From positions 1,614,283-1,678,282 of the forward strand of contig FN649729.1 in the NCBI GenBank assembly GCA_000310025.1: a DNA stretch of 64,000 nucleotides, written 5' to 3'. This document shows positions 21 through 32,583 of the stretch, one piece after another. Both the position numbers and the translations under genes were made by a program. The stretch is from Ectocarpus siliculosus. Its lineage: Eukaryota > Sar > Phaeophyceae > Ectocarpales > Ectocarpaceae. Under the pieces are notes generated by a model, which ran no database searches, was not told the DNA's origin, and was given only the letters and a program-made list of their open reading frames with translations. How positions within the stretch are numbered: the stretch's first letter is position 1; every line of letters starts with the position of its first letter.

Positions 21-1358
21 TTACGTTTTGCATGCCTTAGCGGTTAGACCATTGACCACGCGTCCTCGAGAGGACGGAGCATTGTTCCCACAGGACCAAT
101 CACCGATGGCCAATCGTTCCTTCCTACTTTGCCAAAGGTGGCTCAAAAATGTCTTACCTAGTCTGTCTATCCTAACGATATCCCTTCCCGCCATTTCAAA
201 CCACTTCCTACTCCCCAGTACAGCTACCGTCCTCTCCTCTCTATTCCATGCCTCAAACATCTCCCTGTACGTCCCTTGTATTTTTCCCAGCTCAGTCATG
301 TACACTTCCCTCTCCTCTTCGTACCACGGACATTCCGCGACTACATGAACACGGTCTTCGCATTCGAAGCCGCAATCACATTTGAACGTGTCGTCTTCGT
401 CGTCTACCGTCCTATGTCTTCGTCGACGTTCTCGAAGGCCTATGTCCCCGGTCCTGAATTTTACCTTAAGCTTTGTCCCTGCATCCATTGGTCCATGTAG
501 GTAGTCCTTGAACCCTATTCCTTCTTTCAACATTCCGTACACTTCTAGACCCTCCTTATCCTCGGTTTCTTTCCTTAGATTCTGTTCTTCTCTCTCGGCA
601 CAAGCAACAGATATCTTCTCCTTGAACCCCTGTAGACCCTCCGTTTCCAGCGTTTCATCTTCGTAGATGTCGAACCCCTTCCATACGTCCTCTACAACCT
701 TGACCCATTCCGTGGGTTGTCTACCCCTCTTTCTGTTTGCCCACTTCGCCTCCCATACTATTCTCGGCAACCTCTCCTCTCCCATCCCGCACATGCGGTA
801 CTGCCATGTCAGCTTCCTTGCGCCTCTTCCCGACCGTAGGGATTGGATCCCCAATTCTGCCCTGACGGCTGCATTACTTGTGCGCTTGGAGCATCCTAGG
901 ATGATTTTCGCTGCGTTCATCTGCGCCGCCTCGAGTTCTTTCACTACCTTCTTATTTCCTTCCCATACTTCTCCGGCGTACTCTAGCGGCGGTACGATTA
1001 CGCTCTTCAAAACCGTCAATTTGATGCGTGTATCGAGGTGTCGGTTTGCGAGTATTGGGTGCAGCTTCCCTGCTCGTGCTTTGCCCTTTTCCGCTACCTT
1101 TGACATGTGTGCATTCCACGAGCAGTCGTTTGCGATCTCTACTCCGAGGTATGTGTACTGGTCCACTACTGCAATCTCCTCGATCCCCCACTTCCATCTA
1201 TGTTCTACTGGGTCCTCCCTGATCTCGTTGCATACCATGACGGCACTCTTCTTGACGTTGGCAGACAATCTGCACTTATCAGTAAACTTCTTCGCCGCGT
1301 CAATTTGTAGTTGCAGTCCCTCAGGGGTGTCCGACATACCCAACAAAATCATCCGCAA
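21..1358 (-). pseudogene. LINE fragment: RT thumb and C-terminal zinc knuckle
   Basis: A 445-codon open frame continues the polymerase after the FADD box (SDTPEGLQLQIDAAKKF; KKSAVMV; the YTYLGVEI segment common after the RT palm). It ends with a Cys/His knuckle, CDCGFECEDRVHVVAECPWY, usual at LINE C-termini. The first codons read a shifted version of the FADD region, so the apparent start is an artefact of the frameshift. The TAA stop lies at 21-23, beside the G run. Confidence 0.82.
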
Positions 1359-1854
1359 ACTGCATTCCTGACACCGAAGTTTCCGTGTCCCCTACTTTTA
1401 CTCTCTTCCGGACTGCCTCTACGACTTCCAACAGATCATTGATGAACACCTGGAACAATGTTGGGGACAGCGTGCAACCTTGTGGGACCTCCTGCTCAAT
1501 GTCGAAGAACTTAGACAGTTCTCCGTCTAGCATGACCGCGCTTTTCGTACACTCTGTCATGTTCTTCAGCACTCTCCACATTTTCCCCTCGATCTCGTAC
1601 TTGGACAATTGTTTCCACAGCCCATTTCTCCATACGGTATCATATGCCTTTTTCACGTCCAGGAAGAAGCAGTACGTCGGCCTTCCCGCCCTCTTTCTAC
1701 CTTGGATAATTCTCCCTACCGTGAATGCGTGGTCTACGCACCCCCTCTTCTGTCGGAAACCTGCCTGGCCCCCACTAATGCTACGTTCCTTCTCCAATAC
1801 TCCCACTACCCTATCCTTCAGCAGCTTACAAAACACTTTTCCTACTGTGTTCAA
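1321..1854 (-). pseudogene. LINE fragment: reverse transcriptase core
   Basis: This frame encodes the RT fingers and palm: GQAGFRQKRGCVDHAF, FLDVKKAYDTVWRNGLW with its catalytic aspartate, PQGCTLSPTLFQVFINDL, and FADD with the paired catalytic aspartates. The frame is lost just after FADDFVG, about 1335-1345, where homology jumps to the frame of the next fragment. Upstream it joins the preceding fragment through another frame change near 1855. Confidence 0.85.
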
Positions 1855-3107
1855 CAGTGTGATACTCCCCTATAGTTTCCTGGGCCAGTCTTGTTTCCTT
1901 TCTTAAACAAGTTCACAACCACTCTTCCCCTCCATCTACTTGGCGCATACTCGTTTTTCCACACCCAGTTGTACAGCAGTACCATCAGCTGGATCATCCC
2001 CTTCCCCCCAAACTTCATGAACTCGTTGACTATCCCATCCGCCCCTGCTGCTTTGTGGCACTGCAGCTTGTTCACACACGCCTCAACCTCGTCCTCAGTG
2101 AACTCCTTTTCTAGTTCTACGTTCCCAACGTTTGCCTTCGATGTCTCTTCTTCTTTCTGGGCCCATGCGTCCACCTCCTTCTTAAACACTTGGTCAAAAT
2201 CTTTATTCTCCGAAGGCACTCCAAGTCTCTTGTAGTGTCCTGCTAGAACTTCCCTTTTTCCCTTCCCACTGCTGACTAGTCCACCGTTCACACCTCGCAA
2301 AGTTGCTACCCCTGTATCCCCCCCTTGCGCGGTCTTTTTTACCATCCCACTAATCCCTTCCCACATCTGCGTGGTGTTCCCCTCCAGGCCTCCGTTGGCC
2401 TTCTGCACTACTTCGTCCCAAATGCACTTTTTCTTCTTTTTCACTAGTCCCTTCACCTGTTTCCTCTTGGCCCTGTATTTTTCCCAACTCTCCTCAGACC
2501 CCTCACTCAGATACTGCTTGAAGACTTCTCTAGGTTCCCCCATTTCTTCTTTCAGCTCGTCATCCCACCACTTAACCGATACCCCACATCGTACCACCTT
2601 CTTTCCCACTACTCTCTCTGCCGTTGTGTTCACTATGGACTCCCATCCTTCAATCACCCTGTCCCCTGCTGCTTGTACGTCTCCCTGTCCGTCTTCGACG
2701 CTTCTCAGCAGTTTCCTGAAGGGTTCTACACTACCAGCCAGTCCCTTCTGGAATTCATCCCGTGTCCCCTCGTCTCCCAAACGCTCTACTTTCCACCGGA
2801 ACACTTTCCTCTGTTTCTTACTCTCCGTCTTTCTAGATCGGTCGATGTTTGCCCGTATGAGGAAGTGGTCGGTCGAACCTATATCTATTGCACTAACGTG
2901 CAGCTCTGGGATCTGTGTGCTCCCCCTATCTACCAGGATGTAGTCGAGGATCGAGTATTCATTGCAAACTGCCCTTTGCCTGGTGAACTCCGGCTTTTCG
3001 CATTCCCTCCTACCGTTCAACACCATCAGCTCGTTGCTTCCCAAGAATTCAAGCATCCTCTCGCGGGGGGGGGGGGGAGGGGAGGGTTCAAGCTCGATGC
3101 AGTCCAA
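1851..3107 (-). pseudogene. LINE fragment: endonuclease C-terminus and RT N-terminus
   Basis: An open stretch of 418 codons. Residues about 20-90 match the end of an EEP-type endonuclease (NEYSILDYILVDRG; STDHFL). A long charged linker follows, then the start of the reverse transcriptase, with the YAPSRWRGRVVVNLFKKG and GPGNYRGV segments typical of LINE RTs. The frame then ends abruptly after NYRGVSHC, and homology continues in another frame. It is one piece of the broken element, not a gene. Confidence 0.8.
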
Positions 3108-3903
3108 GGGCCCCCTCCTCTATATATGTCTACAACTCCGTACTTGCGAAGAAACGGTACCTTCTTTCAAATCCATTCCAAGGTTGTTGCCTACGCGCTC
3201 CGTAACGGAGGGTGGTGACCATCACCTTCAGTATTGCCAACCATTGCATCGTGACCCACAGCCATTGCATCGATAAAAGTTCAAGAAATTGATAACGGCA
3301 AAACCAGCAGTACTGCTTTCAAAAGTCGAGCCCCTTGTTATTGAAGGCAGGCAAAAAAAAAGTTGATACTGGTCGTGCCCGCAGCTGTTACAGAAACCCG
3401 CAGTCGTTTGAAGTGGGCACGAAACGAATCTCCTTCCTACGGGGATTTCGCCGAAAGCTTGGATATTCGGGAAAACGTGACCGTCGCTGCAGGACGGACC
3501 TACCGGGAAGAGACTGCTGCATTCCGCTTCTCTCTACACCGCCCTAATGTCAATACCTCATTGTTGCCGTTCAAGGTCTAGGACGTCGTGATGGTCCGCA
3601 GAAACTATGAGGGAAAGGCCGTGTCCATTACCATATATGAGTATTGCGTTTTGAGCCCGCCTCAATGACGCGTTTCATCGTCGGCACCCTCGACCAAACG
3701 CAAAACCCTTCTGCACCCGTGACCACGTCAAGGCAGCGCCGTCAAAACCACTAAAAAAAAAAAAACGTGTCTGCTACTACAACCCACTCGGTATAAGCGG
3801 CGACAAAATGCAAGAGATACAAGGAGACTTGAGAAGCAATCGTCGTGCCAATGGTCGTGCCACCCAGAGGCGCGGCAGAGTGATATAATAGGTAGGCACT
3901 CAC

Positions 3904-14701: not shown

Positions 14702-17700
14702 TTAGAAGATTGAGTTCTTGTGAGCCTTGCCCTTGCTACCGCTGCGCCAGTCCGATATGTTATCTGCGATATTCAACACGATAACAGAGTGCATACCACA
14801 GTCGGAAATGCCGCCTTATGAGATTGGTCGTTGTTCGTTAAGACGTTCTGGACTAGTCAGGGGGAATGGAACTGCGAAACAAACCATGTTGCATAGATCA
14901 CAGTTCCAGTTGGCCGGAGACGGCGTTAAACTCTTCCTACATCGCAGCGACGACTGTCCAGGAGTGGGCGTCTCGATGGCATGGCAGGGCTTAAAAAAAG
15001 CACGTGATTGCGCGCGTGATTGGGCCGTCAACTAACGATTTTTCTCACCGAAGGTGGTGTTGACAATGCCGTCGATCGCCTCCTGTGTGAAGAACGCCTG
15101 CGAGGAACGACGAGACACCGGAGAGCACGCGCCGAACAGATGACGTCGTGTTACGAAGCGAAGAAGCAAACCATGCCACCCTGCACACAAACCACCTCTT
15201 TCGATTCCAGCACGAGAAACAAGTCGAGCTCCATCCGGCGAAGCAGGTATGACACCAGAGGCGTCAGCAAAACACCCGTGCACGGATTATGTGCGTTGTT
15301 CTGCTCAAAAGCTGGACTTGCCATACCACGAAGTTACGCACCTGGTGGCCCGTCAGAAGCACGTTGTTGAAGCTCAGTAGCTCCGAGAGAAGGGGGTCCT
15401 GCGTAGTCGGCGCACAAGCAGCTCGTAAGGACGGGGCGGTACGCGCACGAGCCCATTGGCGAAGACGCGCCGCAACCGTGTGGAGGCATCTCACATCGTA
15501 AGGAGAGATGTACGACAGACGGTGGCAACCTCGCAGTGTCGTCGACTGGACCCAACGCACCACCGATACGAGTCTCACCTGCGACACCCTTGCGATGTCG
15601 TCGTTGATTGGACAACACACCAACGATAACCGAGTGGCGGCATAGCTCACCTGAACCGGGGTATCGCTGCAGTCCTTGAAGAAGTAAGGCGCCTCGTTCT
15701 CGTACACGTCCAGACCAGCCTGGCGGATGACCCCTGATCTGAGGCCCTTGATGAGAGTTTCGGTGTCCACCAGACCTTCGATGTGAACACGACGAAGACG
15801 GCCAAAGTAACGCCCGCGAAAATCAAGAGAGGGAAGGAGACGTACTCAAAGAAAGCGTGGGACTCAAGAACAACTGTACCCGCTGGTCGACCCTCGAATC
15901 CGTGATTCGACTAGGCGCAAGGTCGGGGGGTTGTGACCAGAAGGGGATGGGGGGTGGTGATTGGGGCCGAGATCAAGTCTCGAAAACCAATCAAGGACCA
16001 CCAAACCAACGCTCTGCTGCTAGATCACACGCAAGTACAAGGTCCTCGGTCCTTGGGGTTGTCGGGGGGCAAGGAAGGTGCTTACCTCCTCTGGAAGTGT
16101 TGATGAGGGTCATTCCCTTCTTGAGCTTGGGCAAGACGTCGTCGTTGATCATGTGACGAGTCGACGGAAGCAGTGGCACCTGCAAGAACACCACGTCGGC
16201 TTCCGGCCATACCTACAGTAGAGAAACGAAAAAACGGTGACGAGAAAGTTGGCATTGGGTCCTCCGAAGGGGGAAAGTCCAGTCGTCGCCAGAAAAAGAG
16301 AAAAGTGCGCGCGGCGACCTGCCGTGCCCGGTATCTACCATTTTGATCCCGACTGCAACCAACGAATCCCTGTACCGCTGATCCGTAGAAATCGAGCCTG
16401 ATCCCTTTCTTTTGGCTGCTCTCGTTGCGAAGCACGTGAGGGAGGCGGGGGGGCGTACTTGGCGGGCCTGATGCCTTGGTTTGAGACAAGCGAGTCGGGG
16501 CTTACGATACCATGAATGAAGGGGATTAGACTACCATGCGCTGAGTTACCCAGCTCCCATCCGACATGGAGGCTTGGCAACCCCTACCCAGCAAGTGTTT
16601 GTTTGATCTGTACCGAGCAAAGTAGAGATGTGGGCTTCCAGTTGGGCCCTGACTGTTTGGCTCTTCTACAAACATCTAAATGCGCTGACCCCCAGCCTCG
16701 GCCAAAACTAGAAGTGCTGGCGCCTACTGCTGTACGTAGTAGTTCCCTCACAACTGTGACCCGAATACAAGCACGCCAAGAACTTAAATGGATGGCACAC
16801 TAAGAAAACACGATTTTGATATGTCAATGGAAGTGCGACATACGTTACCTCTTCCAACGCGACGAACGTGGCCCCCCGCTTCACTAGGTCCGGGACCTCC
16901 CCAAACGCGTCGACGCACAAGAGCTTCACCCCGAACCCGAGCAAGATGTTGCTCAAGCATTGGCCGATCTGTTTCGTCAAAAGACCAATGATCGGGTCCG
17001 GACGGGTCGCGGACGCACGTGCTCAATCGTCGAGCTCTACAAAACGTGGATGCAGACATAGTACCCGGAGGGAGCACAACGTTGTTCCAGTTTTCGATTC
17101 GATACAAGGCAGCAACATAGTTTCATATGTCACTCCCACTGCCCGAGCCCTGCGGTGCTATTGCTGTTGGTCTCAGTTTTCGGTTGTGATACAGCCAGCC
17201 GCTCTCACCCTCCCGCAGCCGATTACGGCAACGGTCTTGCCGTGAACGTCGAAGCCGCACAGGCCGTCGAGCGAAAAGTTGGCGTCGTGGGTGCGAGCGG
17301 AAGCCCGGGACGTCTGCCGGTTGAGCGCCATCAGCAGGGCGACGGCGTGTTCCGCCACGGCGTAGGGGCTTCACCACAGCGTGGTGGTGGTCGTCGCCGC
17401 CAGGAGTTTTTCCAGTGGGCAACGGCGAGACGTTGGGCAGATCAGTAAGGGGGACCGCCGAACAGGACGGAGAAATGGCGAGTAAAAATTGGTGAACGTC
17501 GAACGGGGGAAATTTATTTCTCGTCTGGGGTTGCAAGTATTCCCTTTGAAACGCCAACGTTGGCTGTGTTGCTGCTCCACTGTGCGTAGCGATACACCTG
17601 CTCCTCTGGCTGGCGAGACCGAACAACGAGCTGCCCTAACTGAAGAAGAAGTGTGACGGATAACTGTTGAAACTGAACCGGTCAATAGGGAGTTGTCACC

Positions 17701-20700
17701 GAACCTCCCGCCAGCAAGGTTCCAAAGCTAACGCATTGACCAGGTTCGTGCAACCTCACGAGACGCAGCCACAGCTGTATTGGCGCCGTTCCAAGCCCAG
17801 GCACGAAGCTTGATTGAGAACCAGGAAAAGAGGCTTGTGGTCTTACCTGTAGGCCGGCACCCTCGCAACAGTCAAACCAAGGGCCTGAGCGGCGTCCACG
17901 TCCACCCTATCGAACCCGGCGCATCTGTTCGGGAAACACGCGGCATCAGAACATCGAGTGCGCTGGGTTTGCAAAGGAGGATGTTCTCGAGGGTGACGTT
18001 GGCAAAAAAACTGTCAGTGCTAGATAACGTTTTCATGGGCATCAAGACAGAAGACAGAACGTGGGACGAAATGGCAGCAGGGCACACCGGGAGGAAGTGG
18101 TGTCTAGCAAGGAAAAACAAGCGGTTTCCACGACATCGACAAAAAAAAGAAAGAAAATCGAGCTCTCGGATCGACTCGCAAAATACTGAGGTTCTACACG
18201 TGAACCGAAATGTAGGTGGGCTGCGAGGGACACGTCAACTGATCATTCAGCAAATGACGACGCATATACTCGCTGTACTAAGATACAAAAACAGATCCAA
18301 AAACCGGTGAACGAAAACTGCCAGGCCTGTCTGGTGTCACATAGCTCACCGTAGAGCCACCATGCCGACGCCCAGCATGCCGAGAGTCTGGAGAACTTTC
18401 CCGTCCGCCACGTCGTTGACGAACAGGCAAACCACATCGTAACTACGAGCAAGACCGAGGGTGCGGCAAGGAGGAAATCGAGGCGGTGAAAAAGTACTCG
18501 TATTTATGATGCTCTTTCCGAGAATGCTGCATGAAGCACTGGCGACAATCAAATCAGACGGTACACATACTCCCTGGACTTGAACAGGAGGAGGGATAGC
18601 TCCTGCAGGAATACTACACGGTACGGCGATCAGGCCTGGGCGCTTCACCCGAAGCCGCCAAGCACGCTTTGTTTTTGACTCGGCTGCCGGGTTGGAGCCC
18701 GGGAACTTGCTTCATTTACCAGCGCATTGCACCCAACGTTGCGTTTATCTTTCGGATATACTTGTAGAGGAACTTGCATTTGTTTTGCGAGGTTGTCGGG
18801 GTTGCGTCTAGAAGTGATAAATTCGGAGTGTAACCACCGCTGAACTCGTTTCTTTGCCGCGCAAGGAGCAGGAAAGGAGGTGCTCGTGCAGAGGTCAGAC
18901 CGGCCTTTTAATGCGGAGACAACAACAGCGACAGCAACAACGACAACAAGAATACCCCAACACCACCACCACCAACAACAACAATTAAGCAATCCTCGAG
19001 GTCCCGACGGGGCGTTGTCTGCCCTTACCCGACGGCGGCAGAAGCTGAAGAGGAGCTAAGGGTGTCCGACGTGAAATCGACCAAGATCCTCTCGCTCGGG
19101 CTCGCTGCCTGAAGGTTTCGAGGGGGCGAAAATCAAGCCGAGAGCGGCCAGAGGTGGTCAGCGCCGAAAGGTCAAGCCTCAAACCCGACGACGAGACAGC
19201 ATCATGGAACCTCTTTTTCGCGCATGTCAATGGAGACCTTGCCATGCAAGTCTTCTCCTCGGCACCACTTGTCACGTGTTGATTTCGACCCTGACCTGGT
19301 GTGTCGGGGTGCCCCGCGGCACATCAACAATGGAGATCACGGGACACTCAAGGGTTCAAGTCCCACTCCACTACCCACCCATCACGGCAACCTCTCGACA
19401 CTCCAAACGTCACTCCGTCCAGGGTAAGAACAAAAACCGTAAAGGGTTTAGGTACACGTCCAGACGGGCATCACCAACACCGCCTGTATGAACCACGTTG
19501 TACCGCGCCAAGGCAGCGCGGAGGCTGGCTGGCGCACCTCGTTGTGCTTGTCGACCTTGGCTTGGAAGTTCTTCCTCACCCACCCCGACGAGTCGTAGCA
19601 CATCACCCTCACACCTTCGAACCGCTCTCCTCCGCTGCCGGTCGCCCCGGCTTTGCTCTTCAGGTGGGCTACTACCTGCCGCCCGAAATTGGGGGGAAAG
19701 TGCCATACATATCACTGCAGAGTAGAGGATGCATCGAGAACGGGAACAAAGCGGCGTGTTTGGTGTCGTTCGCCTTGTCGCACGGCGGCCGTTTGCGTGA
19801 AACACAGATCAACTTCCTTGTGCACCTGGAGTCAAAAACTACGTTTCCAGCACACGTAGAACGTGAAAAAAGAACAGCATATCAATGTATCACTCTTCAT
19901 GCTCCCGCCGAACCACCCCAAACAAGTCAGCAATGCTTACACTTTTATCACGTTTATGTGTGACCATGCCCAAACCCCGGGGCCGCGAACACAATCCGAG
20001 AACCAGCCGAACCATCACATTCCTTTTTCGAACGTGCCACTCCTTCCCGTCCATGACACCGCCACTACCACTCTTGCCTTTGATTGCCCGCGCATTTGTT
20101 CAGCCAGCTTCCCCAGGAGACCCATGGCGAAGTCCGGTCTACCCCTGAGTTCGGTCTCAAGGTCGTCTCTGCTCAGGCACCACACCTTACGGGAAAACAG
20201 GCGCGCCAAGCGTGGGTGGGGGTCACGACGACTTGAACGAATTGTGAGCAGCGTCGGCCATCAATTGCGAAGCGACAGGGAAACATGGTACCAAGTTTCC
20301 GCATATCATCATGGTGGAGATTTGTCCCGGCTGCTGAAGGTTGCAGGCAGTTCTGGGAGAATGGCCACACGGCAGCATCTAGACGACCGTACCTGTGGTC
20401 CACCCCCCCTTGCTTCCCGAAAGGCAACATGGCTTGATGGTACTGCTCTGTTGTGAACACACCGAAAGGAAGATTCGAGATGAGGCGGCGTTTTCAGCGC
20501 AGCTCGGAACCCGCCAAACGATCGGTTCCGCAGCTATCCCAGACCACTGCAATCGCCCTCGCCATAGGCAAAGCCGGTCATGATTCGCCAGCAAAAGAAC
20601 TCGGCGTATCCTTTTCAACAGCGTGCGCTTAAGCGCGTTTCCCCCCCCTCACCGTGGACTCGCCGCGAGCCTTGATCGTGGCAAAGGCCGGATCCGCTTT

Positions 20701-23176
20701 TCCGGACTTGAGGACATGCAGGAGCCCCGTTACAGATCCCGCCTCCTTGGTGTCCAACAAGAACTCCTCGCCGGCGGCGGTGCCGGAGTGACTTTTCACG
20801 CGCTCGAGCATCCCGGTTTCGATGCTTCGAAGCGTGCGGGCAACGATGTTGCGTTTCGCCACAACGCATGGTAACGGGGCAGGGTTCGAGAACGGCGGGA
20901 GCGCAAGGACAATGGGGTGGGTGCTGGCGCGCTGCCGTCAAGGGCGGGGGGGGGTCGACGCGATAGAAGAGCACGGATTGACATTCTTCCCTTGATGCAT
21001 CCAGGAACCAAAGCGGAATTGGTAACAGGGGCGCCAGGTCTTCGCAAACATGATGCATGCATCCATGCCTACCCCGATCTTACCGAGGGACGGCAGCCGC
21101 CAATGAATGTCTAGACGGCCGTACACAGTTATCTGATGTCCAAAGGTGTAGCACATGTCTTCTTCTTGTGTCTGCGTCTCACCAGAATAAGCCCGGCATC
21201 GGTTGTCCCTCCTTCACCAGGACGTCGCCAGCCTTGAGCTCCATCTTCTGCATCCTGGGCAACGAACGCCCAGCAGAGGCAAGAGGTCAAATACTACCGA
21301 AAAAAATTTCGCCGAGTCAGCCCCGATGCTCCCCTATAATGTTTATCTTACCCGTTTAGCCACCCAAGCGCTCTGTGACGTCCACGGTGCGAAACATGTA
21401 ACAATCGTCCTGATCCTCTTCTTCCCCACTCGTCAAAAAACAGTGCAGTGATGTCAACACTCGCCGAGGAACACTCGCCGAGGAATTGTTCCCTAGATTA
21501 GCAGAAAATAGGTGCTACTGCTGTAGAACACATTGCCCCGTATCGCTCGAAAGCTGCACTAGAAAAAAAAACAGAGGTACAGCAGACTTGAGAACAAACA
21601 AAGGCAGACCTGAAGAGGTTATATACCCTCGCACATCGGTGAAGCCAGGGTGTGTTCGCATACACCAGGTACATTGTTTTCCGCTGACATGCTAACCACA
21701 TTCCACGCCCTGGAGGCGTGAGCAACAATACTACTGAATTTACGTAAGCCGATGTTAACCAAATAATAATGTTCATACAGCAGTAAACGGTCTGTCTGAC
21801 TCTCTTGATTGTGGGTTCGATTTTCTCTTGGATCGAATCATCGCCTTTTACAGTAGTAGAGAGGTGGAGAGCGCATAGACGTAACTGCTATTGGGTGGAG
21901 GCTCAGTGTCTCATTTCGTCGCCAAAAAACCGTCGAGCACGGGACCGCCTTCTTCGTGGGAAATTCAGCATTATCAGGAGATAGAACAGGGAGGGGGCAC
22001 GCAGCCCCTATTCCCTAACCCTAACCATAACCCTAACCCAACTTAAGGCCTTCGCAGGTTTTTCGTATGCAGGAAACATGTTGGATAAAATCATACAATC
22101 GGGGAAGTTGGGTTAGGGTTAGGTATTACCCTCTTGAGATGATGTCAATTGATCGGGTGCTGCTGTGCTGACAGCAGTATGTTGTCCGATAAATTGTCCA
22201 ATAATCATTGCGAAGTCGTACGCAGTAGTTAGCGCCCGCACGGCAGAACTTGACAGCCAAGAAAATAAATCGAGCCCTTCTGGAAAACTCAAAATCTGAG
22301 AACGACCATTTGTGAGCTACCCGTACACTAAAACGAAGTATACATGAGCGGCCATTCGTACTGCTGTAGGTTGTATATAGGAGACCTCTGCGGAACGAAG
22401 AACCCCAACCTCGGCAAAAAACAGAGGTACGCGCGGGCGCTTTTACTGCACACCGCTTACTGCACACTTCGGAGACTTTGTGTCGTAGGACAAGCTTCTT
22501 CTACATGTTTTGCACAAGCTTTTCATGTGGGAGTCAGGAAGCTGTAGTGTGGGGAGAGCAGTACCCAGTACCCAGCCATGGGGGGAACGTGTGATGTACA
22601 TGAATACGACAGAGTTGGAATGAGTGCGGGTCAATTCGAAGAACAAATGAGCAATCCCTCCATGCCTCATCAACGCTTACCTCTCTCCCACCTTGTCCAA
22701 AACATCGTCCGACACTCCAATCGCGATCTGGGCAAGCCGAAGACGAGGGAAAGGGTCATGGCGCTGTTACGTTAGATTGAATCGTCATCAAGCTGTGTTG
22801 TTGACTGTCGACGGAGGTAACTCAGAAAAACTGCGAAATGGTGATACTGTTGCGTTGCGTGAGCTGCAAAGCCGGACGTGATTGCTGCTAGCACAGTGCA
22901 CCTTAATCACCTTAATACCACGTTCATGCACCTTGTTGTTAGCGATCAACAAGTTCCCGTTGCCCTTCCCTCTTCACAGCATGCAGCCCATTGCCATCTA
23001 CACGGTACAAGCACACACAAGCGGCGTAAACAATCGATATCGCGCAGCACAGCAAGAGCACCAAGCACCTTGCTATCCTTCAGCAGCCTCCCTCCTCCTC
23101 CTCCACGTGCCATGTGCTTTGCCAGCGACGAGGATAATGTCCCACCTCCTCGGCGAATCACATGCCGGAGAGCCAT
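14702..23176 (-). CDS. D-lactate dehydrogenase with N-terminal cyclic-nucleotide-binding-like domain
   Basis: NAD-dependent D-isomer 2-hydroxyacid dehydrogenase, expected to interconvert pyruvate and D-lactate. Sixteen exons join in phase into 534 residues: 23176-23069, 22727-22681, 21254-21183, 20824-20653, 20185-20069, 19675-19538, 19108-19029, 18442-18350, 17924-17847, 17368-17209, 16968-16849, 16212-16086, 15775-15651, 15398-15342, 15097-15049, 14763-14702 (TAA). The ATG sits in ACCATGG. Residues 1-36 are Arg/Gly-rich without acids until the end, like a mitochondrial presequence. Residues about 40-165 resemble a CNBD ([20 protein letters not shown]; then [20 protein letters not shown]). 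Residues about 190-534 are the dehydrogenase: [48 protein letters not shown], dinucleotide fold VIGCGRIGQ with LLCVDAF (Asp favours NAD), and the catalytic triad Arg436 (NTSRGG), Glu463 (LDVYENE), His497 (LTGHQ). The catalytic part is of normal family length; the N-terminal third is extra. Both halves lie in one phase-consistent chain, so the fusion looks genuine; the exact presequence function is inferred. Confidence 0.93.
16687..16745 (-). repeat. Dispersed inverted repeat, copy B
   Basis: Reverse-complement copy of 11854-11920, nearly identical over about 60 bases. It lies in the LDH intron between exons at 16212 and 16849 and includes TACTGCTGTA at 16725-16734. Confidence 0.8.
18920..18986 (+). 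repeat. Degenerate CAA/CCA-rich repeat
   Basis: Imperfect array of CAA, CAG and CCA triplets in an intron of the D-LDH gene. Confidence 0.75.
21892..21950 (+). repeat. Dispersed repeat, copy 2
   Basis: Shares GGGTGGAGGCTCAGT, CATTTCGTCG and GTCGAGCACGG blocks with 5929-5985. It lies in the D-LDH intron between exons at 21254 and 22681. Confidence 0.55.
22013..22123. repeat. Inverted pair of interstitial telomere-like repeats
   Basis: CCCTAACC units at 22013-22044 face GGGTTAGGGTTAGG at 22105-22123. The arms 22026-22044 and 22105-22123 pair at 18 of 19 positions across a 60-base spacer. They lie in an intron of the D-LDH gene. Confidence 0.85.
22359..22432 (+). repeat. Diverged relative of the TACAGCAGTA repeat
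   Basis: Begins with TACTGCTGTA and contains GAACCCCAACCTCGGC, the reverse complement of a block in the 11854-11920 repeat, then AAAAAACAGAGGTAC, which also occurs at about 21556-21572 downstream of another TACTGCTGTA (21516). Confidence 0.5.
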
Positions 23177-25016
23177 GGTAACACACGTCTCGCAGAGGTG
23201 AGATACCCAGGATCGGTCGGATGGTGAGAGACGGATGGAATCTCCTTCACGGAGCCTCTCTGTTTCAGCAGCCCATGCTGGCTACATGTTCCGTCAACCA
23301 ACTGGCTCTACACTACCGCAGTACATGTTTGCAAAGATCCTTGTGCCTGCCTGCCTGCGTGCCCGCTACCCTTGAGGGGATACGCCCCTCTACGAGTATC
23401 AGGTTCATGATCCTATGTAGAGATCACTCTATACGATGGTACGTCGGGCGACTCTCCTTATTGCACTACAACTGGGCCAGCGGGATGATCGCCATGTGGA
23501 AATTGATTGTTGATAATCTGCTCGCCACGCTCTGCTTTTGGACACTACGCCGCCGTACTACACCCCGACAAGAGTGCGAGAGCGTTGCCAACGTCGCTAG
23601 TGATGCGCTCCAGAACAACGAAGGAAACGGATTATGTTGTGTGTGTGGTTTTGAGATGAACGAACGTTATTTACCACTGCTGTTACACCTCATTCAGAAA
23701 CTGACGAACTTCTGTTGTTCTCTGCCGGTCCGCGGATATTTACGACGGCGCCCAGATCAAGCCCCTTTCTTGGCTACCACTCACAGTGCTTCCAGTCTTC
23801 CAGCTGATGTCAACCCAACTCAGGAGCTGTATGCCGTTGGAGCTTAGCTCGATCCAGCGCAGAGGGGGAGTGGTCACCGAGGCCGGCGGGTTGTGTGTTG
23901 GCTGCGTACGGGGGGCGGGGCCACCAGCAGTGCAACCCCGCCTGAAACATGCGCGAAGGTCACACATCTCGAAATATCTACCAGATACCTTTGCGTTCTG
24001 AACCACGGGCACGCCCGACAACTTCGGAAGCCAGTAGTAGTCAGAGTTGCATCACTTGAACAAATTTCTGCCACTGCCCCAGCGCGGAACCTGAAAGAAA
24101 GTGTAGACGAAGAAATGACTCTGCTCTGCCCTCCACGAACAACGCAACACTCCTGTTAATCAATTGATTCTGTCAACCGTCGCACACAGCAGTTCTACCA
24201 ACCCTACCGTCTTGACAAACTCGGATCAAATATTCTGCGTCCCACAAAAAAACAGATACGCCCGGAGAAGAACACCTCCGACAGTTCGGAGGCGGGCAAA
24301 GAGAGCAATGTTTTGGGCCGAAGTGCCGACCTCGAAACCATCGAGAAACAAGCTACAATAGTGAACGAATAGGGTCATTCCTAGGTTGATGGTTTCCTTC
24401 CCAGCAGATCGATGTCCCTCATCAGAGGCTCGGTATTACTCTTGATACTGCTGGAGCTGCCCGTGCGGAGCGACAACACCTCCAGCGTACTTACAATTAA
24501 ACACCGCGTATGTTCCCGAGTTACGCTAAGATCGAAGGCATCGGGACAGCACCGAATACACACCAGCGAATCACGAACACGATGAGATGTGCTTCCTTCA
24601 ACCGGCTGGTAGATCCAGCTCGCCGCCAGCTACCTACATATTTAAATATGTGATACACAACCTCAGTTACTTACGTCTATCAGGCGGCTTGATGCAAATC
24701 CGTACGCGTGGAAGACGCCAGCCTCGGGTGCTACACAACAATAAAAAATTTGCTGCGGTTACATGGAGTTTGGTACCTGAAAAAAGGTAAAAAAAAATAC
24801 TTGCGACCCGTCTTTGCCGCCCCCTCGTTCTGTACAAGTCCACCAAACCAAGCTCGCAACCTAGCGAAAAGCGTTTCTGTAATCAACACAACCCGGTGCC
24901 TCCTTTATGACAACGAAGCTCAAGAAGAAACACTCGTTCACCTACACATGTCGGCAACGCATCACGCAGCTGGCAAAACCGATAGGACGACTTTCCTCGG
25001 TCTTGCAAAACTCATT
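23177..25016. other. Intergenic stretch between PDCD5 and D-LDH
   Basis: Both neighbours are on the minus strand, so the right-hand part is downstream of PDCD5 and the left-hand part should carry the D-LDH promoter. Several open frames exist on both strands but none shows a domain or splice context. No TATA element convincing enough to report was seen. Confidence 0.5.
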
Positions 25017-28369: not shown

Positions 28370-30791
28370 ATGGCGGTGGATGCTTCGACAGCGAACGTAC
28401 GTGGCAACTACGTTGCCTCGAGCCAGCCAGGATGTCACATCGCGCATCACGACGCGGAGTGGATAATCGAAGCCACAGATTTCGACCTTGAAGACTACGG
28501 GCTGGAGCCTGGAGACGAGGAGGGGGTGCCAGACATGATCGTTGACCCAGACACCCGTTCCCTGAGGTGCCCAAAGCGCGGTAAATTACAATGCTGGGGG
28601 TTAGGAGTGTCTTGCCGTGCCATTCGTCAATGGCAGGGGTGCTCTCGTCTGTGTTTGTGCTATTTCCTGCTACGAATCGGCCAAGCTGCCACTGTTTTGG
28701 TGACCATGGTGGGCATTACTTCATGTGTTTTGTCGGAACGATCTTGCACCAAAGTCATTGCTTCCTTCAGCGGTAGATATCGATCTTGGACCGCCGCCGC
28801 CCCTCGCCGCCGCCCCTCGCCGCCGCCCCTCGCCCCCGCCCCCGCTCCCGCCCCCGCCGGCCGTGATGCAGCGTTATCAACACCGGATACGACACGGACA
28901 AATCGTTTTTCATCACCACTAAACACGCAGCCTTCGACGGTCAGCGCCGGCCGATGGCGGCGGGGCCAACCCGCAACAGCGAGGGCCAAGAGGACCTTGT
29001 AACGACGCTTGTTCTGATAGTGAAGCCCCGTGGGGTAATCGAGGCCTGCTACTTGGACGTCACCGAAGGGCAGGGGTGTGGAGAGGAAGCGATCGATTTG
29101 TTCTCGGACATCAAGAACGTCAAGCAACACCCTAACCCGGCCGCGTGGGAATCCTCACGCACGTACCCGTTTCCTCTTGGGGGAAACGCCCCCTTCCTCT
29201 GTTCTCAGGTACCATACCCTTCGTGTTCGAGCGTTCGGTTCATTTGATTGACTCGGTGATGTAATTGTGATCCTCTTATTTCTGATGCGCGAGCGACGCA
29301 AGTTAACAGTAGACCTCGGAACTTGGGGGCACAATTGGACCCTTCATCCCGTGTGGGAAGCGAAAAATTGTTTTCCCAAGTTAAACCTTACTAGCATCCC
29401 GTGGCCAGTTACGACACATCGGTAGTGATCACACGCTCGTTGGGGAACCTGTTCGTTCGCTCTACCGCAGGGAGTGGGCGGTAGCTTCACCCATTTCTTT
29501 CCCGGCACACACCACGCGCTGGATTTCGAATGCCCCGAGGGAACGCCAATTCTATCGCTTGCGAGTGGGACAGTCAAGGAAGTACGGCAGTCCGAAACTG
29601 CCGGCGGAGTACACGCAAGAGGGCTGTTTCACTGGAATTCGGTGCGTATTTTGACCAGTGCTGTTGTACTGCAATCGGCTTCCCGTTGTTGGGTGGCCTC
29701 TGTGATACTATTAGCCGTAAAAGTGCAGTCAAACCAGGTAGGGATTAGTACAAATGATTCTTCCCAGTTCCCTATTCGTGCGGATGCCTTGCGAACGAAT
29801 CGGACTGGCGCATGCACACACCACCCAATGCAAAATTGTGCGCAGAATTTGCGGTAGCTCTGAAGCAGAGCCCCGTTACCAAAACTGAAGGAGGACTTGT
29901 GGGCCTTCTGACGACGTGGCGGGCGTAGCGCACCCGTGGATACGCGCACATCAGATTGTGAAGAAGTGGGTCGCCTACTGCTGGTTGGGTTCTGGTTACC
30001 CTAGAAGACTTCTTCTTGTGTAGCAAACAAGAGATGGACTCATAGCAAGGGGAAGGTGAAGGTCGAGGACGATTCACTCTTGTTCACCCACGCATTTTCG
30101 TACGCCGGAAGACTTGTTTGCGTATGATGGCTCTCCAGAGGTTTTCGCCCTTCCCGAAAGGGTTGACAACGTGGGCGGAAATATTCATTCAACGGCGCAT
30201 GCCAATATGAGGAAAAAAGAAAAAAGCCACTTCGTCTCGGCTGAGTTGGTATGACTAATTTTGCGACGTTTTTGAATGATCTTAGATGACCCGACATATC
30301 TACATGGTTTTCGCGTCAATGACCTTTATGGACAGGTTACCGTCTTGCAAGAGGATGGTCTTCTAGCGGAGTACGTCCACATTCTGGCGGGGTCCGCGCT
30401 TGTCAATCCGGGCGATCGAGTTGAAGCGGGGCAACCACTTTGCTTATCAGGCGGGGCGGGGTTTTGCCCGACACCTCACCTGCATCTCCAGTTGCAGGAA
30501 GGCGAGGGTGACACTGCTCCTACGGTGCAGTTCGCTATGCTCGACTGCGAAGGCAACTCATATTTTCCAGTTGCCGGAAAGTGGTACGGCCCCCAGGGTG
30601 AGGTTACACCCCCGCCCTCGATTGTCCAACCACAAGGGGCGCTTGGAAGGGTGGGTGCCGTACAGGGAGAGCACAGCGAGCACCATGACGTTGGCGATGG
30701 AAAAGGGTCGGGCTTTGTCGAGGAGTGCGCTGAAGGTTGTGCGCAACGTCCTCAAAGAGAGACTTGTCCATTACCACGAGCTTCCCGATAG
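28370..30791 (+). CDS. M23-family metallopeptidase (LytM-type fold)
   Basis: Zinc endopeptidase of family M23, known mainly from bacteria, where members cut peptidoglycan cross-bridges; the substrate in an alga is unknown. Four exons join in phase to 363 codons: 28370-28580, 29021-29208, 29471-29657 and 30286-30791 (TAG). The ATG lies in ACACATGGCG. The region before the domain is acidic (DFDLEDYGLEPGDEEG). The M23 core has His147 and Asp151 (THHALDFECPEGTPI), a GTVKEV strand, His227 (LAEYVHI), VNPGDRVEAGQPLCLSG, and the HxH pair His260/His262 (PTPHLHLQLQ), so all zinc and catalytic residues are present. No signal peptide is visible. The donor at 29657 (ACCA|GTGCTG) is weak and was chosen because it restores phase; a neighbouring GTGCGT at 29642 would not. 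The last 65 residues, after WYGPQGEV, look unlike protein and may really be intron or UTR. Confidence 0.85.
28793..28860 (+). repeat. GC-rich minisatellite
   Basis: Tandem units of CGCCGCCCCTCGC followed by CCGCCCC variants, in the first intron of the M23 peptidase gene. Confidence 0.85.
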
Positions 30792-31069: not shown

Positions 31070-32583
31070 TCATGTTAACCCTTCATTGCATGTTGCCTTG
31101 CTGAAGTGCCTGCACCGCAGTGGGCGCAGGGCCTGCCAGCTGTGATTCTCAAATAGTGCTCTCCCCTCTACCCCACACTCTGTGCGCCTGGGTACCCGCG
31201 ACCGATGGGGATTTACTTCCGGTTTCCACAACCACTCTAGTCCACCGACTGGGCTACTAGCAACGCCAGGTGATAGCTCCACGAAGTTTCCATCTTCCCC
31301 CAGCAACACCCTCTCGAGTGTTTCCATGTCATCGGAGGCTTCTTCTGAGCAGTAGCTTGTCACGACCACAGGCACCGCGTTTCTTGGCCCAGATTTTGTC
31401 GCGGGGATTGGTGGTGGTGAAGCCTGTCGATTGCCAACGTGATCGCTAGGACACGCGGCGCGGTCGCAGCCGAGAATGTGCTCTAAAGTAGGCTCCCAGT
31501 CATCGTAGCCCCATAGACCAGCGTTGAAGAGAAAAAGGGCGTCCGGTGTTGCGAACAAGCCAGATACGTCGTGGTAGAGCCCAGAGTTGTACCAAAGGCG
31601 GACCGTCAATGCCCCTGCTGTAGACGGTGGAGAATCACAGCACCGGGTGGTCATCATCCCTGGGGTTGCAGCTGGACTTTCTTGCCACACGCCATCCAGC
31701 CCACAAATGGTTTGGTCCTTTGTGGCAGCTGCTGGGGCGTGATGGTGGACTAAGGTATGCCGAGTGCCATGCAGATGCGGTGGAATATTGGGGCCGCAGA
31801 AGACGAAGTCCAGGTCTTGTACGTGTTCGTCGTGCCCGAGGCGTTGGAACAGGTCTACGAACATCGCCCGCGTCTGCTGCGGCGTTGTGCCTTCTCTGCG
31901 ATGATGCCGGAAAGAGCAAGGCGACAGGAATGCAACTGATCAGCCGACGAGGACATGCAGTGGGCGTAACAGCCCGTTGAGCGCCGTGGCGGACTCTGGA
32001 GGGTTGGAAGCGACCTTGGAAACATCCGACATCAGAACGGCAATTTGTTTTTCGTAGAGCAACGTGACATTTTCAAGGACGCAAGCGCTGGCGGAAAACA
32101 AGTGCTCACGAGCATCGTCAAAGCCTTGTGACCGCTGTCAAACTACCAGGTTAACAACGAAAAACGTTGCTCCTCAGCAGCCGTCAACTGCCGGCTGTGG
32201 CCATTTTGATTGTGCCTCTGGAGGGAGGGTCTCTGTCGAACGTTCCACGCATCTATCAATATTTTAAGTGCTTGCATAGTCATCTTTCCTCTTGCAACTA
32301 TGCACAACAGCCGAAGAGGGCTAATGAGAGTACGTAAAGTTCTTATTCATCCTGTTCGACGGTACCTATGATCTGCTCCCAAGATATGGAGCACAAGATG
32401 CGAAGGCAGGTTTCCGGAGCCGCATATTCTCATCAGCGCATGGAAGATAGTGAAGCTTCGCGTCAAGCGGAGGCTCTCATCTTCCCCAATACATTCCTCG
32501 GACATGGCAGCTGCTCCGGTTGCGGTTGGGCGAAGCTCCAGCAATGCGTCCATCCTCGAAAATTGTACGCCCCCCCCACCTGA
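31070..32583 (-). CDS. Protein with MSS51-type C-terminal domain (5' end missing)
   Basis: Two exons join in phase: about 32583-32366 (after a CTGTCAG acceptor) and 31895-31070. The first ends SHLVLHILGADHR and the second continues EGTTPQQTRAMFVDLFQRLG, followed by DLDFVFCGPNIP, YHDVSGLFATPDALFLFNAG, WEPTLEHIL and a late VPVVVTSYCSEEASDD. This order (hydrophobic VGA-like strand, GP-N-P, PDALFLFNAGL, T-Y--EE) matches the domain found at the C-terminus of MSS51 and many MYND-finger proteins in algae. A MYND zinc finger would be expected upstream, but none was found in the next 3 kb, which is rich in repeats. The phase of the first exon shows there must be at least one more exon. The gene is convergent with the M23 peptidase, 278 bases away. 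Function unknown. Confidence 0.72.

Follow-up and report, generated by a model that had tools for sequence, protein, structure and literature searches.

The locus examined here, on contig C4 of Ectocarpus siliculosus, raises the question of whether a D-lactate dehydrogenase (D-LDH) and a cyclic-nucleotide-binding-like domain (CNBD) are encoded by one gene and, if so, what such a domain does for the enzyme and in which compartment the protein works. The window, i.e. the whole stretch of 64,000 nucleotides that was analysed, spans C4:1614283-1678282, and positions without a contig name are counted from its first letter; genome searches covered 189 Mb in 492 contigs. The reading that we propose, with a probability of roughly 65%, is one nuclear gene for a protein of about 531 amino acids, composed of a mitochondrial presequence, a CNBD/CRP-fold domain that lacks the Arg of its phosphate-binding cassette, and a D-LDH. 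The enzyme itself is of a known type, and what is unusual is the architecture in which it occurs.

The gene was rebuilt from the sequence as 16 exons on the minus strand (23176-14702), which upon in-frame splicing give 1605 nt and 534 amino acids, with GT..AG at 15 of 15 introns in this model (Table 1). The in-phase chain of the initial annotation was thereby reproduced, including its exon edges and its 534 residues. The start ATG at 23176 has an in-frame stop upstream (open stretch 22946-23281), and a TAA at 14702 forms the end of the gene. The CNBD is continuous even though it is split over exons 3-5, and the splice sites joining these exons are therefore supported. An acceptor for exon 4 at 20923, resulting in 567 amino acids, was rejected in favour of the one at 20824 because with it the CNBD drops from 44.4 bits to 30.2, which is still above the cut-off, and the protein grows by 33 residues. 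Only small repeats were found when intron 2 was examined for such elements; at 22009-22128 it holds inverted telomere-like repeats (TAACCCTAACCC / GGGTTAGGGTTA) with arms of 17-18 nt placed 60-84 nt apart.

Table 1. Predicted exons of the fusion gene and the intron at the junction of its two halves (positions in the window).
Feature	Position	Strand	Content and basis
Exon 1	23069..23176	-	Leader, probable mitochondrial presequence; 71% identity of residues 1-28 to an NDUFB8-like first exon
Exon 2	22681..22727	-	CNBD-like region begins; splice model
Exon 3	21183..21254	-	N-terminal strands of CNBD; Pfam cNMP_binding 56-144
Exon 4	20653..20824	-	CNBD core, degenerate phosphate-binding cassette; Pfam and PDB alignments, acceptor by CNBD score
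Exon 5	20078..20185 (preferred); end at 20069 in the initial annotation	-	CNBD end; GC donor AAG/GCAAGA versus weak GT donor
Intron 5	19676..20077	-	Junction of CNBD and D-LDH; GC-AG with the donor after 20078, GT-AG with the one after 20069
Exon 6	19538..19675	-	Linker and first strand of D-LDH
Exon 7	19029..19108	-	D-LDH; splice model
Exon 8	18350..18442	-	D-LDH; splice model
Exon 9	17847..17924	-	D-LDH, presumed catalytic Arg region; splice model and 5z20 alignment
Exon 10	17209..17368	-	D-LDH, NAD-binding domain begins; splice model and Pfam
Exon 11	16849..16968	-	D-LDH, end of GCGRIG motif and residues after it; splice model and 5z20 alignment
Exon 12	16086..16212	-	D-LDH; splice model
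Exon 13	15651..15775	-	D-LDH, presumed catalytic Glu region; splice model and 5z20 alignment
Exon 14	15342..15398	-	D-LDH, LLTGHQ, presumed catalytic His region; splice model and 5z20 alignment
Exon 15	15049..15097	-	D-LDH; splice model
Exon 16	14702..14763	-	D-LDH C-terminus and stop; splice model

The enzyme half appears to be an intact NAD-dependent D-LDH of the fermentative type, with predicted pyruvate/D-lactate activity. It matches Pfam 2-Hacid_dh (PF00389, E 4.6e-23) and, at residues 311-499, 2-Hacid_dh_C (PF02826, E 2.6e-46), both above cut-off. The nearest solved structure is a D-lactate dehydrogenase (Fermentative), 5z20 (E 2.2e-87), which we take to be the Pseudomonas aeruginosa enzyme. 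The stretches VALRCAG, DVYENE, TGHQAF and GCGRIG align with it, so that the GxGxxG motif and the stretches with the presumed catalytic Arg, Glu and His are kept. Both the catalytic and the NAD-binding domain, with the same key stretches, are thus shared with the 5z20-type enzyme, whereas here about 190 residues (leader, CNBD-like domain and linker) precede the first strand. The NCBIfam D-LDH models were matched below their curated cut-offs, and we therefore only infer the substrate specificity. In the search for prokaryotic relatives 80 of 283 loci were kept, with best-segment identities of 44-54%. At most 60 stop-to-stop residues precede the enzyme's first strand in 76 of these 80 bacterial frames, and the upstream regions of the four with more than 60 lack a CNBD when read by eye. 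A scan of viral contigs for relatives gave 16 stretches that fit the pattern, none of which encodes one. Within the Ectocarpus genome, the best candidates scored with the 534-residue query outside its own locus were the copy of the leader and three places at E of at least 0.14; other matches to the 2-hydroxyacid dehydrogenase family lie on C23, C40 and C26 and elsewhere on C4.

The two halves meet at intron 5, and its splice sites were scored against a matrix built, in leave-one-out fashion, on the 14 remaining introns. The GT donor used in the initial annotation (GTAGTG from 20068) scores 0.3, which is the lowest of the 15 and beats 70% of 716 GT sites. Nine nucleotides upstream of it and likewise in phase 0 lies the GC donor AAG/GCAAGA, which reaches 7.5 over the positions outside the dinucleotide, a score that only six of 4367 minus-strand GC sites in the window attain, this one counted among them; in the same matrix, the 14 other donors, from which it was built, range from 2.2 to 8.3 and the GT donor at 20068 obtains -3.4. 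Because the GC donor is strong and in phase while the GT donor is poor, we prefer a GC-AG intron, with which exon 5 would end at 20078 and the protein would count 531 amino acids. The notion that the CNBD exons run straight into those of the D-LDH is thus retained as an in-frame splice, but its donor at 20069 is replaced by the one at 20078. On the other side of the intron, exon 6 is preceded by a weak acceptor (0.6, beating 57% of 549 AG sites); introns 6 (0.6) and 9 (-4.7) end in acceptors that are equally weak or weaker. Neighbouring AGs of other phases score up to 3.2 and a phase-0 AG at 19714 outscores 19675 but leads into a stop; 19675 is the best-scoring acceptor that is both in phase 0 and stop-free.

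An in-phase join is expected by chance in about one of three cases, and a second in-frame donor-acceptor pair exists (20088 to 19634, with a lower donor score), so that phase alone is little proof of a fusion. More weight falls on three features: a near-consensus donor lies just where the CNBD ends, the open stretch of exon 6 offers no in-frame ATG ahead of residue four of the first enzyme strand, and the length of the intron in its GT form (393 nt) equals the median of the 15 introns. The CNBD and D-LDH halves are thus likely fused in one gene, presumably read as a single transcript across both, and the fusion suggested earlier stands as the best gene model, based on the splice model and the Pfam domains.

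The same exons could also belong to two neighbouring genes on one strand, namely one for a short CNBD-like protein of the mitochondrion (exons 1-5 and the open frame up to a stop ending at 20015) and one for a separate D-LDH, beginning either in exon 6 or in a first exon of its own inside intron 5. The frame past exon 5 is indeed open until this stop, the GT donor at 20068 and the acceptor of exon 6 are as poor as described, and no CNBD fusion was seen among the 80 bacterial D-LDH loci, but a near-consensus, in-phase GC donor right at the end of the CNBD and a gap of median intron length speak against separate genes. Moreover, the statement that there is no alternative start turned out not to be strictly true, given an in-frame ATG in exon 6 at 19603, three residues into the enzyme's first strand, and a conceivable first exon within intron 5. 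A D-LDH beginning at 19603 would, however, be deprived of the VRV of its first strand, a place where the four bacterial upstream regions that were read do have residues. As for intron 5, an ATG at 20054 is followed by phase-0 GT donors that score up to 4.2 (19940), similar to the donor of intron 1 (4.0), but the three ATGs of this intron that run into exon 6 are out of the exon 6 frame, and there is no Met in frame. Taken together, we consider an arrangement of two genes unlikely, the variant with a first exon inside intron 5 included, and continue with the single fusion gene.

The CNBD-like part of this gene matches Pfam cNMP_binding (PF00027) at residues 56-144 (E 3.6e-11, 43.3 bits versus a cut-off of 27.5), and phmmer searches against the PDB gave weak matches to a regulator from bacteria (2.6e-5), a channel gated by cGMP (0.004) and a chain of Protein Kinase A (0.0069). 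It shares the Pfam family and these weak PDB matches with the CNBD/CRP-fold domains of Crp/Fnr regulators, CNG channels and PKA-type chains, but differs from them by the absence of the cassette Arg and by its dehydrogenase partner. A match to the NCBIfam model of a family 2B encapsulin shell remained, with 30 bits, far under the cut-off of 400. In all three PDB alignments printed, the cassette Arg is replaced by Ala (PAFAT), and compared to the PKA-type chain (AFGELALLYNA...PRAATV) the Glu is replaced by Leu as well.

A genome-wide CNBD search yielded 19 matches at E 0.001, from which the fusion locus is absent, presumably because its domain spans three exons. Thirteen of these exons, chosen for a profile range that takes in the cassette wholly or for the most part (the other six end at profile position 58 or earlier), were read by eye, and they keep the Arg in 13 of 13 and the Gly-Glu pair in 12 of 13 cases. 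A profile made from the 13 exons matches 26 residues of our protein with 8.2 bits, starting from the AT of PAFAT and hence two residues past the Arg position, so that the Ala at this position is reached only by counting back. A MAFFT alignment of the exons retains Gly-Glu (AGEEFLL) at the cost of an 18-residue insertion, with the Arg absent there too; our preference is for the PDB alignments, whose spacing requires no more than small gaps. The loss within the cassette is thus robust for the Arg alone, the status of the Glu differing between alignments.

Canonical control of the enzyme by cAMP or cGMP seems unlikely, since the phosphate-binding Arg is missing. The allosteric regulation envisaged in the initial annotation, in the sense of its proposed cAMP/cGMP test, would mean a functional CNBD that gates the D-LDH via one of these nucleotides, and is not supported. 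The score above the Pfam cut-off, the weak phmmer reach to a regulator, a channel and a Protein Kinase A chain, and the Gly-Glu pair in one MAFFT alignment might be read this way, but an Arg that is Ala in three PDB alignments, missing in MAFFT and present in each of the 13 further CNBD exons that were read, together with a Glu that is also replaced in the PDB alignments, renders a nucleotide-gated enzyme very improbable. At the other extreme, the fusion might be real and its CNBD-like part a passive remnant or a linker without regulatory role. Such fusions can be neutral, and the pocket is degenerate; however, 43-44 bits versus Pfam across three open exons suggest a fold under maintenance, and a purely passive role is in our view most improbable. 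KCNH-type channels possess ligand-free CNBD homology domains that likewise retained the CRP fold and lost cyclic nucleotide binding, although in those proteins the domain belongs to a channel and not, as here, to a soluble enzyme. In the mitochondrial fusion protein that we favour, the CRP-fold domain would be a module that modulates or anchors the enzyme independently of cyclic nucleotides, by mediating oligomerisation, by binding a partner or by sensing another small ligand. A possible but tentative extension is that the CNBD-like module has been re-purposed to sense a signal other than cAMP/cGMP or to attach the D-LDH to some mitochondrial complex, offering stramenopile mitochondria a regulated D-lactate outlet of their own, with a leader copied from NDUFB8. 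PMC2567999 includes a Fucus EST for which a signal peptide is predicted and which weakly matches (2e-3) a cyclic nucleotide-binding protein from bacteria.

The leader (residues 1-28) bears on the localisation. When used alone as query against the genome, it has 71% identity to C4:2897300-2897383 (E 1.5e-6); at E up to 10 there are two leader matches in the genome, itself included, and the reverse search returned the same pair. At the DNA level 39 of 47 bases agree between the two copies, some of them located 5' of the ATG, and the leader contains eight K+R versus one D+E. The gene at C4:2897300 was read as two exons, the first joining the second in phase 0, and its product matches the mitochondrial complex I subunit NDUFB8 in 7aqw (E 1.6e-10, 134 of 145 residues with the acidic tail omitted), which is presumably a plant complex I entry; Pfam assigned no family to this NDUFB8-like protein. 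The frame of this gene, from C4:2897300 onwards, closes with a long glutamate run.

As the leader is common to this NDUFB8-like complex I gene, it probably is a mitochondrial presequence, and import of the protein is likely. The earlier guess of a specially localised enzyme gains support from exactly this sharing of exon 1 with the leader exon of a gene for a mitochondrial complex I subunit. Given the long mitochondrial history of NDUFB8, we regard the fusion gene as the recipient, which would have acquired its copy of the leader from the NDUFB8 side. Presequence gain by exon shuffling is known from plant mitochondrial genes. The locus resembles these cases in having its leader exon in common with the gene of another mitochondrial protein, and differs in that the partner is NDUFB8-like and that we infer the direction of copying.

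An imported enzyme would presumably be found in the mitochondrial matrix, where the pay-off half of stramenopile glycolysis can also run. There, it might reduce pyruvate to D-lactate and thereby re-oxidise NADH, or catalyse the reverse reaction. For stramenopiles, among them brown algae, PMC3527533 and PMC5715807 report that enzymes of lower glycolysis bear mitochondrial signals. As a counterpoint, the word lactate does not occur in PMC5715807. The available part of PMC3527533 further describes a TPI-GAPDH fusion across stramenopiles, with mitochondrial signals, and the Ectocarpus entries in its table include PGK, PGAM and enolase of mitochondrial type, none of three pyruvate kinases of this type, and a TPI-GAPDH without an obvious N-terminal extension. 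With zero of three pyruvate kinases being mitochondrial, pyruvate made in the matrix is not assured, and import or another source may be needed. On C49 we found TIM and Gp_dh_C matches on one strand and in TPI-then-GAPDH order, which fits the fusion in the portion of PMC3527533 at hand; additional TIM matches are located on C126, while C33, C32 and C118 carry more Gp_dh_C matches. Likewise, the gene described here would be a glycolysis-linked fusion with an N-terminal mitochondrial signal, but the TPI-GAPDH fusion, as presented in that portion, joins two enzymes, while here an enzyme is joined to a sensor-like domain.

No description of a CNBD-D-LDH fusion was found among the matches listed in a literature search, and none is contained in the accessible parts of PMC5715807, PMC3660698, PMC6198282, PMC3527533, PMC2567999, PMC11115451 and PMC2705460. 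If our reading is correct, Ectocarpus would possess a D-LDH bearing a regulatory-type domain, a fermentative step would be added to stramenopile mitochondrial glycolysis, turning the site and the control of D-lactate metabolism into testable questions, and a mitochondrial presequence would have moved between genes as an exon.

Several other features were observed in the window and the genome. Remains of a retroelement lie at 24-3119 of the window on the minus strand, with a reverse-transcriptase stretch at 1324-1869 (RVT_1, E 8.8e-22); the long open frames flanking this stretch matched no Pfam family, and we would guess a non-LTR type. An open frame on the plus strand (30276-30788) matches Peptidase_M23 (E 2.8e-7), a family common in bacteria, and another one on the minus strand (31073-31939) matches the MSS51 C-terminal domain (E 1.1e-23). 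The chlorophyll a/b-binding family is represented by 87 exon-level matches in the genome, which together with the TIM and Gp_dh_C matches on C49 fit a photosynthetic stramenopile, and it forms dense local arrays on C92, C232, C488 and C16. Many of those on C92, C232 and C488 score identically, for which tandem expansion and assembly redundancy are candidate causes.
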